Below the pieces are notes generated by a model. The model was given only the letters and a program-made list of their open reading frames with translations, was not told the origin of the DNA and made no database searches. From contig JAFLCL010000002.1 of assembly GCA_017303575.1 (NCBI GenBank), positions 1 through 64,000 of the forward strand: a stretch of 64,000 nucleotides of DNA. The letters are read 5' to 3'. Within the stretch, counting starts at the first letter, position 1. Each line of letters begins with the position of its first letter. Positions 2,229 to 61,375 of the stretch are shown one piece after another. The translations under genes and the position numbers were made by a program. Source of the DNA: Deltaproteobacteria bacterium. GTDB taxonomy: Bacteria > Myxococcota_A > Polyangia > Polyangiales > Sandaracinaceae.

Positions 2229-3587
<1,359 letters not shown>

Positions 3588-11805: not shown

Positions 11806-13695
<1,890 letters not shown>

Positions 13696-21073: not shown

Positions 21074-21478
21074 TCACTTCGCGGGGAAGTAGCGCGTGCC
21101 GCGGCGCTGGCCCTTGCGCGTGATCGTCTTGTCCGCGAGCAGCTTCGTGATCGGGAGCGTGATCTCCTTGGAGGAGACGCCCATGTGCTTCGAGATGGCC
21201 TCGACGCCCTCGCCCGGGTGCAGGCTGATGTGCGCCTTCACGGCGTCGACGAGCTTGGCGAGCGCGTTCGGGTCGCGCTTGCCGCCCTTCTTGGCGGCGC
21301 GGGGCGCCGACGAGGCCTTGGCTGCGGGCGCGGCCGCCTTCTTCGAGGGGCTCGACGTGCGGGGCGTCGCGCCGCCGCCGAGCGCCGACTGCACCGCTTC
21401 GAGCGCGGCCTTTCGGACGAGGGCGTCGAGGTCGGCGACGAAGGAGGCGACACGAGCTTCGATCTCACGAGTGGTCAT
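21074..21478 (-). CDS. Histone-H1-like DNA-binding protein (host copy)
   Basis: 134 aa. An N-terminal helix (EIEARVASFVADLDALVRKAALEAVQSALG) suited to dimerisation is followed by a Lys/Ala/Pro-rich tail-like linker (40-65), then a basic KKGGKRDP and a winged-helix-like C-terminal domain (LAKLVDAVKAHISLHPGEGVEAISKHMGVSSKEITLPITKLLADKTITRKGQRRGTRYF). It probably binds DNA as a nucleoid protein or regulator. The ATG at 21478 is supported by the near-identical start of the prophage homologue at 60944. The overall order matches between the two. Confidence 0.75.
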   Translation of the reverse strand: MTTREIEARVASFVADLDALVRKAALEAVQSALGGGATPRTSSPSKKAAAPAAKASSAPRAAKKGGKRDPNALAKLVDAVKAHISLHPGEGVEAISKHMGVSSKEITLPITKLLADKTITRKGQRRGTRYFPAK

Positions 21479-23123: not shown

Positions 23124-24197
23124 TCAGGACGTGCGGCGACGCGAGCCGTTGTTGTCCGCCGTGGTGCTGCTGCTGTCCTTGCTGGAGCTCGCGCTCGCGC
23201 GCGACGCGCTGTCGTCCGCGCGCTTGATCTTCAGCTGGTTCGTGACCTCGTTCACGCCACGAACGCGATCGGCGAGGTGCTCGGCCTGGAGCTTCTCGCT
23301 GCGATCCGCGACGGTGCCAGTGAGCGTGACCTCGCCGTTGCTCACGGTGACGTCGACGTCGCTCCAGTCGTGGCCACTCTGGGCGAGGGAGTCACAGACC
23401 TCCTCGCGCACACGCTCATCCGAGCGCGTGTAGTTCTTCGGCGCCTTGCCCGACTTCTCCTGGCTCCGCGCGCCGTAGCCGCCATCGAAGCTGCCGATGC
23501 CGTAGCTCTGCGAGCCCTGACGGCTCCCGTTCCACTGCTGTGTCCCGTAGCCGTAGCCGTCGTTGACGCTGCCCGTGCGGCTCATGCCGTCTCCCGTGCC
23601 CATGCCCATGCGCGAGTCGTCGCGGTCGCGGCCGATGCCGTTGCCAGGGAGATCGCGGTCGTCGCGGCTCCGGCCGTAGTCCTGGTTCGGTCCGTACGAG
23701 CTGGGGCCGTGGTTGCCCGGCCAGTACGACGCCTGTCGGTCCTGCGTGAAGTAGCGGTCCGAGTCATTCCGGCCGTAGCCGCGCGAACCGCGTTCGCTTC
23801 GATCGCGGTCATGCGATGCGCTGTCGGGATCGAAGCGGCGCGGGGACCGATCGAAGTCGCGATCGTTGCGCGAGTCGAAGTTGCGCGATTCCATGTTGCT
23901 GCGCGGGCCCATCTCGAGTCTGTCGTCGTCGCGCTCGTGGCCACGACCGCTGGACTCGTAGCTGCGTCCCTGGTTGCGATCGCCCTGGCCGTAGCTCTGG
24001 CTCTCGCCGTCCCAGCTGCGACCGCCACGGGGCTGTCCCCCTTCGCTCTCCCAGCGGCTCGACTCTCTCGTGGTCGGGCTCATCGTGCGCTGGTCGTCCA
24101 TCCCGCTGCGGCGCGTGCTGTGAGTGTCGCGATCTCGATCGCTCCCGTTGCGGCCGTAGCCGCGATCCTCGTGCTGAATGCCGTTGCGCTGATTCAT
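23124..24197 (-). CDS. BON-domain protein with long Gly/Asn/Arg/Asp/Ser-rich N-terminus
   Basis: 357 aa. The first ~245 residues are low-complexity and hydrophilic (RDR, GYGRN, SYGQG repeats), likely disordered, with no signal peptide. A conserved module begins KSGKAPKNYTRSDERVREEVCD and leads into one BON domain (about 257-325: VDVTVSNGEVTLTGTVADRSEKLQAEHLADRVRGVNEVTNQL). BON domains, as in OsmY, bind membranes or proteins under osmotic stress. A basic Ser-rich tail ends GSRRRTS. The ATG at 24197 is chosen because the 31211 paralogue begins with the same MN-RNG. A strong sigma-54 site lies 62-77 bases upstream. Confidence 0.85.
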   Translation of the reverse strand: MNQRNGIQHEDRGYGRNGSDRDRDTHSTRRSGMDDQRTMSPTTRESSRWESEGGQPRGGRSWDGESQSYGQGDRNQGRSYESSGRGHERDDDRLEMGPRSNMESRNFDSRNDRDFDRSPRRFDPDSASHDRDRSERGSRGYGRNDSDRYFTQDRQASYWPGNHGPSSYGPNQDYGRSRDDRDLPGNGIGRDRDDSRMGMGTGDGMSRTGSVNDGYGYGTQQWNGSRQGSQSYGIGSFDGGYGARSQEKSGKAPKNYTRSDERVREEVCDSLAQSGHDWSDVDVTVSNGEVTLTGTVADRSEKLQAEHLADRVRGVNEVTNQLKIKRADDSASRASASSSKDSSSTTADNNGSRRRTS

Positions 24198-24258
24198 GTC
24201 GTCGATCTCCGTGCGTGCTTGAGGCCGCACCTCCGTGGTGCGGAGCGGCCGGCCTCAG

Positions 24259-24638: not shown

Positions 24639-24650
24639 GGAGCCAAGGCA

Positions 24651-24666
24651 GGGCATGAGGGTTGCT
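24651..24666 (+). promoter_or_regulatory. Predicted sigma-54 promoter
   Basis: GGGCATG-N4-TTGCT, GG-N10-GC. The predicted start is near 24677, 24 bases before the SDR ATG. It is divergent from 24623-24638 with only 12 bases between them. Confidence 0.58.
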
Positions 24667-24700
24667 CGTTCGGCGCCTCACCCACCTGAAGGAGACCCGC

Positions 24701-25525
24701 ATGACGAACGGAAAGACCCAGACCGGAGCGACGACGAAGCACGAGGGCGAGCGCCAACTGGCCGTGATCACCGGCGCCTCGTCGGGCATCGGTCGCGCGC
24801 TCGCGCTGCTCTGCGCGGAGGCCGGCTACGACTGTGTGATCGCCGCCGACGACGCGTCGATCGACGCGGTCGGTGGGGAGCTCTTGCGCAAGGGCGGGCG
24901 CGTGGACGTGGTGCTCTGCGACCTGGCCACCACCGAGGGCAACGACAGCGTGATCGATGCGGTGCGAGGTCGACGCGTCGAGCTCTTGCTGGCGAACGCC
25001 GGCCACGGTCTGGGGCACGCGTTCCTCGATCAGACGTTCCGCGAGGTGAGGCACGTGATCGACACGAACGTGACGGGGACGCTCTACCTCATCCATTCCC
25101 TCGCGCGGCGCATGCGTCAGGCGGGGCGCGGCAAGATTCTCATCACGGGCTCGATCGCGGGGTACATGCCCGGCTCCTTCCAGGCCGTCTACAACGGCAG
25201 CAAGGCGATGATCGACTCGTTCTCGTACGCGCTCGGCAACGAGCTCAAGGACACCGGCGTGACGGTGACGTGCCTGATGCCGGGAGCCACGGAGACGGAG
25301 TTCTTCGCGCGCGCGGGCCTGCTGGACACGAAGGTCGGACAGTCCAAGAAGGACGACCCCGACGATGTCGCGAAGCAAGGGTTCGACGCGATGATGCGCG
25401 GCGACCACGAGGTGATCACGGGCTTCACCAACAAGCTCCGGGCGATGATGAGCAAGATCGCACCGGGCGAGCTCGCCGCAGAGCTCCACCGCAGCATGGC
25501 GGAGCCAGGGTCGGCAACGCGCTGA
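24701..25525 (+). CDS. Short-chain dehydrogenase/reductase
   Basis: 274 aa. Cofactor loop TGASSGIGR (24-32), NAGHG, catalytic Ser in TGSIAG, and YNGSKAM with the Tyr-x3-Lys pair (Y164, K168), then PGATETEFF. The C-terminus (EVITGFTNKLRAMMSKIAPG) is typical of the DltE-like SDR group. The first 18 residues are polar. AAGGAG precedes the ATG. An internally deleted relative lies at 35570. Confidence 0.88.
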   Translation: MTNGKTQTGATTKHEGERQLAVITGASSGIGRALALLCAEAGYDCVIAADDASIDAVGGELLRKGGRVDVVLCDLATTEGNDSVIDAVRGRRVELLLANAGHGLGHAFLDQTFREVRHVIDTNVTGTLYLIHSLARRMRQAGRGKILITGSIAGYMPGSFQAVYNGSKAMIDSFSYALGNELKDTGVTVTCLMPGATETEFFARAGLLDTKVGQSKKDDPDDVAKQGFDAMMRGDHEVITGFTNKLRAMMSKIAPGELAAELHRSMAEPGSATR

Positions 25526-28007: not shown

Positions 28008-28023
28008 AGCAAGTGAAGTGCCG
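28008..28023 (-). promoter_or_regulatory. Predicted sigma-54 promoter
   Basis: Minus strand CGGCACT-N4-TTGCT, GG-N10-GC. The predicted start is near 27997, ahead of the SemiSWEET gene. Confidence 0.5.
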
Positions 28024-28368
28024 TGCTGGCGCCTCGGAGCCGCGCAGCGCCGACACGCGCTCCCGTCGGAGGGCCACGCCGACTGCCAGGCGCCAAGCGT
28101 GTGTCCGTTGCTTCGAGCCGGCACGACCGTCGAGGTCTCGATCACCGTCTCGCCGATCGTCGCGCCGGACGGATCCGTGGTGGGTGTCTCCGAGGTCCGA
28201 CGTCGCGAGTCCGGCACGGGGCGCCGCACACCCGCGATCGCGTTGACGGCGTTCGCCCGACCGGAGGACCGGACACGATCGTTGCGAGCGGGATTCCAGA
28301 GCCACATGGCCGAGCCCGTGAACGTCGACGAGCTGGTCGCGCTTCTCGACTCGCTCGTTCAACGTTGA
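28018..28368 (+). pseudogene. Remnant of a PAS hybrid histidine kinase (PAS end fused to receiver end)
   Basis: An open frame of 116 codons. Residues ~35-60 match the last strands of a PAS domain (GTTVEVSITVSPIVAPDGSVVGVSEV). From ~69 they match the C-terminal third of a receiver (TPAIALTAFARPEDRTRSLRAGFQSHM-EPVNVDELVALLDSL). The kinase core, receiver phospho-Asp and N-terminus are missing, and the conserved receiver Lys is Glu. The simplest reading is an in-frame internal deletion of a hybrid kinase. No clear ribosome site is seen. Confidence 0.65.
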
Positions 28369-31210: not shown

Positions 31211-32236
31211 ATGAACGAGCGCAACGGGAACCAGAACGAGAGCCGCAGCGACGGACGGAACGGACACGATCGCGACGGCAACCGCAGCATGCAGAGCGCC
31301 GGCCTGGATCAGCCGCGCTGGGGCAGCGATCGGAACCAGTCTGGCGCCGAGCGTGGCCAGAGCGGCCGCACCCTCGGCGAGCGTCCCGCGATGGGTCAGC
31401 GCGGTGGCTACGAGCAGCGCGACTTCGGCGGGCGCGGCAACGAGCGCGACGGCGAGTACAGCGGTCATGGGCAGGCGGGCTCCGAGCGCGAGGCCGACCA
31501 GCGCAGCCCGGATCATCGAAGCAACCTGCGCGACTTGGACGGGCGCAGCTACGGCAGCGGGGGTGGCGAGACCGATCGCAACAACCGCATGCAAGCCCGT
31601 GGTCACTACGCGGGCGAGGGCAACGACGGAATGAGTGGTGGCGTGAGCGGCGGCATGGACGGCATGGGCCGTCCGCGCAGCGGCCGCGACGGCTTCAGCG
31701 TTGGGGGCGGCCAGCAGGAGAATGGCAGTCGTCAGGGCTCGGGCTGGGGCGGCTCCGAGAGCGGTTTCGGCTCACAGCAGGGCTACGGCGCTCAGAGCTC
31801 GCAGGGCTATGGCATGGGCGGCTTCACGTCGCAGGGCTACGGTGCTCCCCAGAGCTCACAGGGCCGAGGCATGAGTGGCTTCGAGGGCGGCGCCCATGCC
31901 CAGAAGTCGGGGAAGGCCCCCAAGAACTACACGCGCTCCGACGAGCGCCTGCGTGAGGAAATCTGCGATGCCCTCGCGAACAGCGGCCACGACTGGAGTG
32001 AGGTCGAGGTCCAGGTGAGCAGCGGCGAGGTGACCCTCACTGGCACGGTCGCGGATCGCAGCGAGAAGCTTCACGCGGAGCACATGGCTGACGCCGTGCG
32101 GGGCGTGAACGAGGTCACCAACCAGCTCAAGATCAAGCGCCCAGAGGCTGGCGACTCGCGCAGTGCGTCGAAGTCGTCGTCGATGAAGGACGAGGTCGCG
32201 AGCGAGACCGCTGGGTCGCGCCGACGTACGGCCTGA
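31211..32236 (+). CDS. BON-domain protein, paralogue of the 23124 gene
   Basis: 341 aa, same architecture as 23124-24197. A disordered Gly/Ser/Gln/Asn/Arg-rich region (1-230; repeats such as SSQGYGMGGF, QGYGAQSS) is followed by KSGKAPKNYTRSDERLREEICDAL and one BON domain (about 243-311), and the tail ends GSRRRTA. The C-terminal 110 residues are nearly the same as in the paralogue, while the N-terminal regions differ in composition. GGGAGAACGACC precedes the ATG. A strong hairpin follows the stop. Confidence 0.85.
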   Translation: MNERNGNQNESRSDGRNGHDRDGNRSMQSAGLDQPRWGSDRNQSGAERGQSGRTLGERPAMGQRGGYEQRDFGGRGNERDGEYSGHGQAGSEREADQRSPDHRSNLRDLDGRSYGSGGGETDRNNRMQARGHYAGEGNDGMSGGVSGGMDGMGRPRSGRDGFSVGGGQQENGSRQGSGWGGSESGFGSQQGYGAQSSQGYGMGGFTSQGYGAPQSSQGRGMSGFEGGAHAQKSGKAPKNYTRSDERLREEICDALANSGHDWSEVEVQVSSGEVTLTGTVADRSEKLHAEHMADAVRGVNEVTNQLKIKRPEAGDSRSASKSSSMKDEVASETAGSRRRTA

Positions 32237-32449: not shown

Positions 32450-35380
32450 GTGGGTGCTCGAACCTCGCGCACCGTGGCTGACACCCAAGCGTCCGACCCC
32501 TCGAGACAGGGCCCGCCCCGACAGGGCCCGTCGAGACAGGGCCCGTCGAGACAGGCCGCGTCGCGCCGAGAGTTCGACGTGGCTCGCGGCGTCGCGGTGG
32601 GCCTCGTGCTCGTCGCGCTCCTCACCGGACTGAAGCTCGGCCTGTCGGAATCCATCGGGTACCCGACGCCCTACCTCCTCTACTTCACGGCAGCGCTCCT
32701 CGCCGGCTGGTATGGCGGGGTGAGCGCGGGCCTCGCCACGTCGGTCATCGCCGTCGTCGCCGGCTACGTGACCTTCGTGCGTGGCACCGAGCTCCCGACG
32801 GACATGGCGCTCCTCGGCGCGTCGATCGCGTTCGTGGAGTGTGCGGCCATCAGTGTCGTCACCACTCGCCTCCGCGAGGCGACGCTCGAGAGTGAACGCC
32901 GCGCAGACGACGCCAAGGCCGCGAGCGAGCAACTTCGCGCCGTGCTCGAGGGCTCCGGACAAGGGGTCACGATGCTGGATGCATCGGGCGAGCTCGTCTT
33001 CGCCAACGAGCGCGCGGCAGAGCTCGTCGGGCTCTCCGATCCCCGAGCGATGCTGCATGCGCCTCGTGCGACGTTCGAGGATCGCCTGCGCTTCTTCCGC
33101 GAGGACGGCACACCACTGGCGTCCGAGCACATGCCGTCGCAAGTCGTGCTCCGCAGCGGCGAGGCGAGCGAGAGGCTGATGCGCTCGGTCGTGCGTGCGA
33201 GCGGCGCGGAACGCTGGATCCTCGTTCGCGCCAACCCCGTGAAGGTGGATGGCGTTCTCCGGGCTGTCGTCATCGTGTTCCACGACGTCACCGAACAGCG
33301 AAAGCACGACGCCGAGCTCCACGTCAGCCGCGAGTGGCTGGCGACTGCGCTGAGGAGCATCGGCGACGCCGTCATCACGACCGACGATCGAGGTCGCGTT
33401 CGCTACCTCAACCCCATCGCCGAGACGCTGACTGGCTGGGGACGGGTGGAGGCCGAAGGACAACCGCTGGACGAGGTGTTCCGCATCGTCGACGAGACGG
33501 AGCGCCAGACCATCGAGAGCCCGGTCGCGCGCGTGCTGCGCGAGGGCGTCATCGTGGGGCTCGCAAACCACACGCTCTTGCTCCGTCGCGACGGGACCGA
33601 GATCTCCATCGACGACAGCGCGGCGCCGATCCGCGATCAGGACGGCGTGCTCGTGGGCGTGGTCCTCGTGTTCCGCGACGTCTCGATGGAGCGTCGGGCG
33701 GAGCTCCGCGCCAGCTTCCTCGCGCGCGCAGCCTCGGAGCTCACGTCTTCGCTCGATTACAAGACGACGCTCGCGAGCGTCGCGCGCCTGGCCGTACCGA
33801 CCATGGCCGACTGGTGCGCGGTCGACATGCGGGGCGCGACGGAGGGCTCCCGGGAGCGCGTCGCCGTCGCGCACGTCGACCCGGAGAAGATCGCGCTCGT
33901 GGCCGACATCGAGCGACGCTACCCGCCCGATCCTCATGCGGCCTCGGGTGTCCCCAACGTGCTGCGGACCGGCCGAGCGGAGATGCTGCCGCTGATCCCC
34001 GCGGCGATGCTCGACGCCGCCGCGCGAGACGACGAGCACCTCCGACTGATCCGTCAGCTCGCGCTTCGTTCGTACATCGCGGTGCCGATTCGACGCGGCG
34101 AGCGAACGCTGGGCGTCATCACGCTCGTCATGGCGGAGTCGGGGCGGACCTACGACGACCCCGATCTGGCCATGGCCGAGGCCCTCGGCGAGCGCGCCTC
34201 GATCGCGATCGAGAACGCATCGCTCTACCGCGAGGCTGAGCGGCTTCGCGTCGAGGCCGAGTCGGCGAGCCGCGCGAAGGACGAGTTCCTCGCGATGCTC
34301 GGTCACGAGCTCCGCAATCCGCTCGCGCCCATCACCACGGCGCTGCACCTCATGGACGCGCGCGCTGGCGCAGCGTTCGAGCGCGAGCGCGCGGTCATCC
34401 GGCGACAGCTCACGCACGTCGTGCGGCTCGTCGACGACCTCCTCGATGTCTCGCGCATCACGCGCGGCAAGGTCGAGCTCGAGCAGGAGCACCTCGATGT
34501 GGTGACCGTCCTCGAGGCTGCGATCGAGGGGGCACGACCGGCGATCGAGGAGCGTCGACACGAGCTCCAGGTCGAGGTGCCCTTCGGTCTCGTCGTGCGC
34601 GGCGATCGACTGAGGCTCACCCAGATCTTCCTCAACCTCCTGACGAACGCGGCGAAGTACACGCCGCCGGGTGGTCACGTCAGGGTCAGCGCGCGTGAGG
34701 AGGCGGGCCTGGTCGCTGTGCGGGTGGCCGACGACGGCATCGGCATCGAGCCCGACCTCCTGCCCCACGTCTTCGAGGTGTTCACGCAGGGCGCGCAGGA
34801 CGCATCGCGCGCGTCGGGCGGCCTCGGCCTCGGCCTCGCGATCGTGAAGAACCTCGCGTCGCTGCACGGCGGCTCGGTGGAAGCGCGGAGCGAGGGACGA
34901 GGGCGCGGGGCCGAGGTGACCGTGCGTCTGCCCCGCTCGAGCCAGCCCGCCGACGGATCCTCCGCTGCGACCGCGACGCGCGCGCCCCGCGACACGTCTG
35001 GAGGCGACGACTGCGTGATGGTGGTCGACGACAACGAAGACGCTCGCGAGATGCTCGCGATGGCGCTCGATGCGACGGGACACCGTGTGGTGACCGCCGG
35101 TGATGGCCCCAAGGCCATCGAGATCGCGCGCCGTGAGCGGCCGTCGATCGCGCTCCTCGATCTCGGGCTGCCGGGGATGGACGGCTTCGCGCTCGTCGCA
35201 CGTCTCCGCGAGATGCCCGAGCTGCGGGGCACCCGGTTCGTCGCGCTCACCGGGTACGGTCAGCCAGGCGACATCGCGCGCACGCGCGCTGCGGGATTCC
35301 ACGAGCACCTGACCAAGCCCATCGAGCTCGCGGTGCTGCTCGAGACGCTGGAGCTGCTGCGTCGCGCGCCCGCGGTCTGA
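32450..35380 (+). CDS. Hybrid sensor kinase: DUF4118-PAS-PAS-GAF-HisKA-HATPase-REC
   Basis: 976 aa from GTG 32450 (GTG 32474 is possible). After RQGPS repeats, residues ~45-125 are the DUF4118 membrane sensor of KdpD-like kinases (TPYLLYFTAALLAGWYGGVSAG). Two PAS domains (about 160-280 and 290-410) and a GAF domain (about 425-590) follow. HisKA has GHELRNPLAP, and the HATPase has NLLTNAAKYTPPGG and GLGLGLAIVKNL. The C-terminal receiver (about 855-970) has VVDDNEDARE, LLDLGLPGMDG and LTKPIE. The receiver regulator at 35799 may receive its signal. Neighbouring genes are stress-type. Confidence 0.9.
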   Translation: MGARTSRTVADTQASDPSRQGPPRQGPSRQGPSRQAASRREFDVARGVAVGLVLVALLTGLKLGLSESIGYPTPYLLYFTAALLAGWYGGVSAGLATSVIAVVAGYVTFVRGTELPTDMALLGASIAFVECAAISVVTTRLREATLESERRADDAKAASEQLRAVLEGSGQGVTMLDASGELVFANERAAELVGLSDPRAMLHAPRATFEDRLRFFREDGTPLASEHMPSQVVLRSGEASERLMRSVVRASGAERWILVRANPVKVDGVLRAVVIVFHDVTEQRKHDAELHVSREWLATALRSIGDAVITTDDRGRVRYLNPIAETLTGWGRVEAEGQPLDEVFRIVDETERQTIESPVARVLREGVIVGLANHTLLLRRDGTEISIDDSAAPIRDQDGVLVGVVLVFRDVSMERRAELRASFLARAASELTSSLDYKTTLASVARLAVPTMADWCAVDMRGATEGSRERVAVAHVDPEKIALVADIERRYPPDPHAASGVPNVLRTGRAEMLPLIPAAMLDAAARDDEHLRLIRQLALRSYIAVPIRRGERTLGVITLVMAESGRTYDDPDLAMAEALGERASIAIENASLYREAERLRVEAESASRAKDEFLAMLGHELRNPLAPITTALHLMDARAGAAFERERAVIRRQLTHVVRLVDDLLDVSRITRGKVELEQEHLDVVTVLEAAIEGARPAIEERRHELQVEVPFGLVVRGDRLRLTQIFLNLLTNAAKYTPPGGHVRVSAREEAGLVAVRVADDGIGIEPDLLPHVFEVFTQGAQDASRASGGLGLGLAIVKNLASLHGGSVEARSEGRGRGAEVTVRLPRSSQPADGSSAATATRAPRDTSGGDDCVMVVDDNEDAREMLAMALDATGHRVVTAGDGPKAIEIARRERPSIALLDLGLPGMDGFALVARLREMPELRGTRFVALTGYGQPGDIARTRAAGFHEHLTKPIELAVLLETLELLRRAPAV
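32501..32560 (+). repeat. Four 15-bp in-frame repeats
   Basis: Unit tcgagacagggcccg with minor changes in copies 2 and 4, encoding the SRQGP repeats at the N-terminus of the hybrid kinase. Length variation here would keep the frame. Confidence 0.85.
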
Positions 35381-35496
35381 ACGAGGCTCTCGCTGTCAGG
35401 GTGGGAGTGTGGCGGATCGCGTCATCGAGAGGCATCGTGGCTCACTCTCCGACTCGCCCTCGGCGCGAAAGCGTGTGGAAGCCCTCGAAGCGGCGA

Positions 35497-35512
35497 CGGC
35501 ACGTCGCGTGCT
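35497..35512 (+). promoter_or_regulatory. Predicted sigma-54 promoter
   Basis: CGGCACG-N4-GTGCT, GG-N10-GC. The predicted start is near 35523, ahead of the SDR remnant. Confidence 0.45.
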
Positions 35513-35569
35513 GACGGGTCGGCGCGCTGGACGAGGTCATGGAGACCCGCCGCGTCGAGGGATCGGACG

Positions 35570-35785
35570 ATGACGAAGAGGACGGAGCAGGGCGCGCGAC
35601 CGCTGGCGGTGATCACCGGCAGCAAGGCGATGATCGACGCGTTCTCGCACGCGCTGGGAAGCCAGCTCGAGGACGCGGGCATGAGCGTGACGCGTGTCGT
35701 CAGCGACGCGGCCACGGATCTGCGCGTGCTGATCCTCCCCGCGGGTCAGGTCTCGGCGTACCTCGACTCGCACCAGGCCGCCTGA
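35570..35785 (+). pseudogene. Internally deleted short-chain dehydrogenase remnant
   Basis: 71 codons. RPLAVITG matches the N-terminus of the SDR at 24701 (residues 19-25), and without a break GSKAMIDAFSHALGSQLEDAGMSVT matches its residues 166-189. The fusion removes the equivalent of about 141 codons, including the glycine loop and the catalytic Ser and Tyr, so it cannot be an SDR enzyme. The last 25 residues diverge. GAGGGA before the ATG and a sigma-54-like promoter remain, so it may still be expressed. Confidence 0.75.
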
Positions 35786-35798
35786 GGTTGCGCGTTGG

Positions 35799-36161
35799 TC
35801 ACGCGGCGCTGTTCGCGTGACGCGTCACGCGTGCGAGCGCCTCGTCGAGCGCGACCATGGTGAACGGCTTGAGCAGGGTCTCGAACGTCGCGCCTTCTGG
35901 GTGCGCGACGCGATCCGCGCCCGTCATCACGATCAGCGCAGGGCGGCGCCGGTCGGCTGCGAAGGGCTGCAGGACGTCGACGCCCTTTCCATCGGGCAGG
36001 TTCAGATCGGTGAGCACCGCGTCGAAGTCTTCGTCTTCGGCCAGGCGCTCGCGCGCGCGCCTCATCGTACCGACCGTGACCACCACCGCCCCGCGCCTCG
36101 TCAGGTGTCGCTCGAGCAGCCGACGGAACACTTCTTCGTCCTCCACCACGAGCACCCGCAT
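35799..36161 (-). CDS. Single-domain response regulator
   Basis: 120 aa receiver only: VLVVEDEEVFRRLL, phospho-acceptor D52 in VLTDLNLPDGKG, VMTGAD, LLKPFTM. No output domain. It starts at the ATG at 36161, where the receiver begins. With the hybrid kinase at 32450 it could form part of a phosphorelay. Confidence 0.9.
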   Translation of the reverse strand: MRVLVVEDEEVFRRLLERHLTRRGAVVVTVGTMRRARERLAEDEDFDAVLTDLNLPDGKGVDVLQPFAADRRRPALIVMTGADRVAHPEGATFETLLKPFTMVALDEALARVTRHANSAA

Positions 36162-36225
36162 TCGGCGAGCGTAGGCAGTGGAGGAATGGATCACAAGCCG
36201 GACGCGGCGTCCCCCCGGCGCGAGG

Positions 36226-60943: not shown

Positions 60944-61375
60944 ATGAACATCACTCCCGAGATCGAACGCCGCATCGCTTCCTTCGTCGCTGACCTCGAC
61001 GGCCTCGTCCGCACCGCTGCCCTCGAAGCAGTGCGGGCCGCGCTTGGCGGCAAGGCTCCCGTCGCGAAGGCGCCCGCGGCAGCCACCACGAAGGCTCCGA
61101 AGGCGGCGCCGGCCGTGAAGTCCGCAAGCACCAAGGCGTCGGCGCCGAAGGCTCAGCGTAAGGGCGGGAAGCGCGATCCCCAGGACCTCGCTAAGCTCGT
61201 CGACGCGGTCGCCGCACACATCGCGAAGAACTCGGGTCAGGGCGTCGAGACGATCGCCAAGTACCTGGGCGTGTCGACGAAGGAGCTGGCGCTTCCGATC
61301 ATCAAGCTCCTCGACGCCAAGAAGATCACCCGCAAGGGTCAACGTCGCGGCACGCGCTACTTCCTCGCGAAATAG
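60944..61375 (+). CDS. Histone-H1-like DNA-binding protein (prophage copy)
   Basis: 143 aa. Same architecture as the host protein at 21074: an N-terminal helix (EIERRIASFVADLDGLVRTAALEAVRAALGG), an Ala/Lys/Pro-rich middle (48-72), KGGKRDP, then a winged-helix-like C-terminus (LAKLVDAVAAHIAKNSGQGVETIAKYLGVSTKELALPIIKLLDAKKITRKGQRRGTRYF). The end sections are nearly identical and the linker differs. It may let the phage alter host DNA packing or gene control. Its stop is immediately followed by the DUF4238 stop. Confidence 0.75.
   Translation: MNITPEIERRIASFVADLDGLVRTAALEAVRAALGGKAPVAKAPAAATTKAPKAAPAVKSASTKASAPKAQRKGGKRDPQDLAKLVDAVAAHIAKNSGQGVETIAKYLGVSTKELALPIIKLLDAKKITRKGQRRGTRYFLAK

Follow-up and report, generated by a model that had tools for sequence, protein, structure and literature searches.

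A 71-codon chimeric open reading frame, probably a remnant of a duplicated SDR gene

In the window, that is, the whole 64,000-nucleotide stretch of bacterial DNA analyzed here, a 71-codon open reading frame (ORF) joins the N-terminal end of a short-chain dehydrogenase/reductase (SDR) to a distant piece of the same protein and to an unrelated tail. With a probability of about 0.6, the ORF is a chimeric remnant of an SDR2 duplicate that underwent an internal deletion and a second break and has since been evolving without constraint. SDR2, the intact paralogue, sits approximately 10 kb from the ORF and is its nearest relative within the genome, a draft assembly of 540 contigs. The ORF is flanked by a hybrid histidine kinase gene (976 aa, 32450–35380, plus strand) and a receiver-domain gene, and it has no match in Pfam and NCBIfam (in Pfam, no family at E 0.1). 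The locus and the paralogue are as follows:

24701–25525, plus strand: SDR2, intact paralogue, 274 aa, adh_short (Pfam PF00106, E 1.8e-38)
35570–35785, plus strand: chimeric ORF of 71 codons with an ATG start (SDR2 N-terminal end, SDR2 residues 167–190, and unrelated tail)
35799–36194, minus strand: short receiver-domain gene on the other flank of the ORF

The relationship to SDR2 is carried by two blocks, which meet at a single glycine codon:

35589–35620, plus strand: left block, 27/32 nt identical to SDR2 24744–24775, ungapped
35614–35692, plus strand: right block, 66/79 nt identical to SDR2 25192–25270, E 1.8e-16
35618–35620, plus strand: joint at the Gly codon ggc common to both sides (SDR2 G25/G166), placed by the difference in block offset

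The left block is the top ungapped match within the window, the runner-up reaching 22/32, and both blocks are nearly equal in their identity to SDR2, at about 84%. The offset difference between them corresponds to 423 nt (141 codons) that are extra in SDR2 and in frame. The first-pass annotation had claimed that SDR2 residues 26–165 are absent from the ORF, and the two blocks with their 141-codon offset difference bear this out; the joint at the ggc codon, shared by SDR2 residues 25 and 166, is likewise confirmed, as is the preservation of the frame, with 141 codons lost and the ORF open. A profile search aligned the ORF to SDR2 residues 162–168, unlike the placement of the left block at the N-terminus. 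The corresponding candidate, one continuous SDR fragment (AV..GSK, SDR2 residues 162–168), is ruled out, since the N-terminus fits far better, at 27 of 32 positions.

The endpoints of the missing segment are marked in SDR2 by an imperfect direct repeat:

24760–24775, plus strand: left copy of the imperfect 16-bp direct repeat in SDR2, 12/16 in register
25183–25198, plus strand: right copy of the same repeat in SDR2, 12/16 in register

The two copies coincide exactly with both deletion endpoints, and an agreement of 12/16 or better is found in 0.1% of the 93,875 in-frame 16-mer pairs within SDR2. Because such a repeat, in the top 0.1%, lies at the endpoints, slippage or annealing between short repeats is the likely route of the deletion, in line with the earlier proposal of a short direct-repeat deletion. 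The sequence thus gives good support to an internal deletion in an SDR2 duplicate, assisted by a short direct repeat.

The internal deletion is, in the SDR2-derived part, followed by a second loss. The right end of the ORF is formed by the following segment:

35693–35785, plus strand: tail of 30 codons and stop, unrelated to SDR2, with gene-like codon usage (GC3 0.93 over 35699–35782)

To the right of 35692, the anchored DNA extension toward SDR2 stays at the level of chance (its score is matched by 76 of 385 random windows; shuffle P 0.32–0.64), and the tail protein compared with SDR2 gives a shuffle P of 0.36. No detectable SDR2 homology extends beyond 35692, and therefore SDR2 residues 191–274 (84 aa) are also gone and the tail is unrelated. 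Hence the annotation of an internal deletion holds for residues 26–165 and falls short at the C-terminal third, which is missing too and replaced by the unrelated tail. Two origins of the tail were rejected. Derivation from strand 4 or the last strand of an SDR, in scrambled form, is plausible by eye but has no support in the sequence, given the same shuffle value and the chance-level extension; as the end of a gene found elsewhere, the tail was compared with 27 relatives, and none matched it convincingly (the best, at E 0.148, lies in a frame with a stop).

The homology to SDR2 also continues to the left of the coding blocks, where the following features are located:

35480–35588, plus strand: upstream region and 5' portion, colinear with 24641–24743 and weakly homologous to it (anchored extension)
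35541–35550, plus strand: decamer GGAGACCCGC, equal to the SDR2 Shine-Dalgarno (SD) stretch at 24691–24700, the longest word in common
35557–35562, plus strand: GAGGGA, SD-like by sequence reading, 7 nt 5' of the ATG of the ORF, a possible new ribosome site

The leftward anchored extension reaches about 35480 with a score matched by 2 of 377 random windows; the upstream stretch alone, compared with SDR2 in an unanchored test, is not significant (P 0.14–0.15). Words of at least 10 nt in common occur in 1 of 300 random windows. In SDR2 the decamer directly abuts the ATG, and before the ORF the next triplet is CGC; the ATG of the ORF lies 19 nt beyond the decamer and is aligned with an inner SDR2 codon. 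The ribosome site described as retained is thus present as the SD decamer of SDR2, but the SDR2 start codon that it served has been replaced by CGC. The promoter, also described as kept, does not reappear: no sigma-70-like site is detected before the ORF or before SDR2, the search covering the sigma-70 type only.

The ancestry of the ORF can be narrowed by individual residues. Gly179 (SDR2 numbering) is common to the ORF and SDR2, and the orthologues carry Arg in 15 of 16 cases and Val in the remaining one; Met170, also common to both, is present in a single orthologue of the 16. These two shared derived residues show that the ORF is a copy from SDR2's own lineage. Over the right block the ORF agrees with SDR2 at 66 of 79 nt, and SDR2 agrees with any of six orthologues at 58 of 79 at most (eight loci were taken, and two in the wrong strand, L027 and L029, were left out). 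The relatives of SDR2 are scattered across Alphaproteobacteria and others, many of them on large plasmids. In two of eight plasmid regions (Rhizobium bangladeshense and Bradyrhizobium), a zinc-dependent alcohol dehydrogenase gene adjoins the SDR2 relative, and a dehydrogenase gene also comes after SDR2 in the window. SDR2 itself may have been acquired from elsewhere, because SDR2-like genes are found at E 1e-50 in only 3 of 55 relatives and are absent from the sole same-genus genome.

Searches for the ORF outside this genome gave no counterpart. No homologue appears in any of the 55 relatives or in any of 376 other genomes of the phylum sample (the two sets overlap), and the locus of the ORF is common to no genome searched; the kinase gene, at E 1e-150, is found in none of 11 other relatives, and the receiver gene and a membrane-protein gene, used as synteny markers, gave no useful matches. 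Among viral contigs, none of eight pattern matches to the ORF was confirmed. The matches in nine plasmid records span only 41–59% of the ORF at E 0.1 or worse, and a literature search on SDR-type small proteins listed a single paper, apparently not relevant.

Classical SDRs are marked by the glycine-rich cofactor motif TGxxxGxG and by a catalytic Ser and YxxxK. In the ORF, the TG of the cofactor motif is left and the deletion starts right after it, the catalytic Ser lies inside the deleted part, and Ile occupies the position of the Tyr, the Lys of YxxxK being kept. Because the cofactor motif, the catalytic Ser, and the Tyr are missing, the ORF cannot work as an SDR, and its predicted product cannot be an oxidoreductase. 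Common descent with the SDRs is evident from the DNA matches and from a profile match at E 4.4e-10 (one target; the profile was built from nine sequences, with L027 and L029 in the wrong strand). As in a pseudogene, a clear paralogue exists in SDR2 and parts essential for function are missing; the frame itself is unbroken, open over 71 codons.

The substitutions accumulated since the duplication give little sign of constraint. Between the ORF and SDR2, 10.5 of 17 differences are nonsynonymous (0.62, over only 34 codons), and the simulated neutral mean is 0.76 (5–95%: 0.57–0.93); the pairwise dN/dS is below 1 (0.152/0.311), calculated over few sites. The ORF has changed faster than SDR2: across the 24 residues compared, SDR2 is nearer than the ORF to 15 of the 16 orthologues and ties with it for the remaining one, and Glu181 (SDR2), which is Glu in all 16 orthologues, is Gln in the ORF. 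The open frame is weak evidence for a gene, because 57–84% of simulated copies are still stop-free after 10–40 substitutions. In codon usage, the ORF resembles a gene, with a codon signal of 0.59 bits per codon against 0.60 in SDR2 and a GC3 of 0.92; the codon score of the tail is matched by 0.5% of 2565 off-frame segments versus 42% of 513 in-frame segments. From the single sequence, AlphaFold2 predicts a compact beta-alpha-beta-beta-alpha model of the ORF with a mean pLDDT of 78.9 and a pTM of 0.65, the values being 58.3 and 0.13 for an overlapping out-of-frame ORF, a single control of poor composition. With this model, Foldseek finds no significant match (best E 0.22), and VIA gives a best Z of 5.2 (2guk_A, rmsd 2.6 over 58 residues), below the meaningful level of the tool, with no SDR among the matches listed. 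Codon usage and the compact model do not decide the matter, because two coding pieces that were fused and died recently would have this codon usage and could give this model.

From these observations we infer the order of events, the mechanism, the expression, and the lack of function of the ORF. SDR2 together with about 60 bp upstream would have been copied within the lineage to a site 3' of the gene for the hybrid histidine kinase. Slippage or annealing between the imperfect 16-bp repeats would then have removed the 423 nt and kept the frame open. A break after SDR2 residue 190 would have removed the C-terminal third, and what was left of the copy would have been fused, still in frame, with the final 30 codons of another coding sequence. 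Finally, the original start codon would have been lost, and a codon further inside would have turned into an ATG preceded by a new SD-like stretch. The remnant is perhaps still transcribed and translated, by accident.

Against a relic speak the gene-like codon usage, the dN/dS below 1, and the compact model, together with three changes that each preserve the frame: loss of the 423 nt, a net difference of 6 nt close to the N-terminal end, and fusion with the tail. This last regularity is to be read with the caveat that the ORF came to notice because it is open. The same three changes favor a working miniature gene, in which deletion and fusion yielded a small protein, folded in the order strand, helix, two strands, helix, and kept by selection. 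Such a gene would account for the gene-like codon usage from start to stop, for GAGGGA at 7 nt from the ATG, and for the compact predicted model, to which the tail contributes a strand and a helix. In addition, seven of the eight replacements in the 24-residue block fall on exposed positions by our own reading (post hoc one-sided P about 0.05, calculated by hand). However, the substitutions are indistinguishable from neutral and include a change at a position that is invariant among the 16 orthologues, the genomes and viral contigs searched hold no relative, neither fold comparison is significant, and a sigma-70-like promoter is not found, so that selection on the ORF appears unlikely, though it deserves to be weighed. 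As to its role, the SDR-derived helix could, in this reading, pair with SDR2 subunits, or the protein could do something unrelated to SDRs. The fuller version, a new, compact, translated 71-aa protein that combines the first Rossmann strand, a distant helix-strand block, and a strand and helix fused in frame from another gene, and that may bind SDR2 subunits, is improbable.

The tail, coding-like yet unrelated to SDR2, and the start codon, which is not that of SDR2, would also suit the copying of a short SDR2 patch, by conversion or by insertion of two pieces, into another small gene that already had its own start and tail. Against this, the colinear homology on the left continues through the SD stretch of SDR2, and the joint coincides with the SDR2 direct repeat, which is what a deletion would produce; such patching is quite improbable. 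A chance likeness or an assembly artefact, for which the fragmentation of the draft into 540 contigs might speak, is scarcely credible beside a 66/79 match at E 1.8e-16 and an independent 27/32 block in the correct order; furthermore, a divergence of about 16% from SDR2 argues against a misassembled SDR2 copy. The remnant of a duplicated SDR2 is accordingly the reading that we prefer.

Several other features of the window were recorded. The ORF 28018–28368, cited in the first-pass annotation as a similar case, joins a PAS-domain end to a receiver-domain end, an arrangement that loss of the central part of a hybrid histidine kinase would give; compared with the kinase at 32450, its shuffle P is 0.002 for the PAS part, and its receiver part is matched in 0 of 1000 shuffles. 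The likeness therefore stands as far as the PAS/receiver fusion is concerned, but the codon signal is weak (0.20 bits per codon) and an intact parent was not found. That the region yields in-frame miniature genes through internal deletion is a suggestion. The receiver protein of 35799–36194 is stand-alone, and its best relatives are receiver domains within frames of about 470–620 aa, among them L052 (53% identical), by sequence reading an NtrC-type regulator. The gene at 35799–36194 may be another truncated gene adjoining the ORF.

Related pairs also occur across the window. The paralogous proteins of 23124–24230 and 31211–32236, which we take to be BON-domain proteins, lie in opposite orientation; their conserved ends share 81.5% identity over a 260-bp stretch, and a degree of similarity is also present upstream. 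An inverted pair of related sequences, 21078–21473 and 60952–61371, is 71% identical over 426 bp, and a direct pair, 2424–3108 and 12511–13196, is 71% identical over 705 bp.

As a relic, the ORF would illustrate, clearly but in no unusual way, how duplicated bacterial genes shrink via short-repeat deletions. Should it instead be translated and retained, it would give a traceable instance of a new small protein put together out of parts of a common enzyme fold, and the parent gene, 10 kb away, would be there for comparison. Compared with classical SDRs (PF00106; SDR2 orthologues of Azospirillum, Skermanella, Caulobacter, and Rhizobium), the ORF has the N-terminal strand LAVITG and keeps the helix-strand block after YxxxK (SDR2 residues 167–190), but it lacks the cofactor motif, the catalytic Ser and Tyr, the C-terminal third, and a Pfam match. 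In Haloquadratum walsbyi, many inferred deletions are reported to be associated with direct repeats of 4–20 bp (PMC3119063). As in the gene remnants described there, the deletion endpoints of the ORF fall at a short direct repeat; unlike them, the ORF has an imperfect repeat (12/16), and its second break has fused a coding-like tail in frame.
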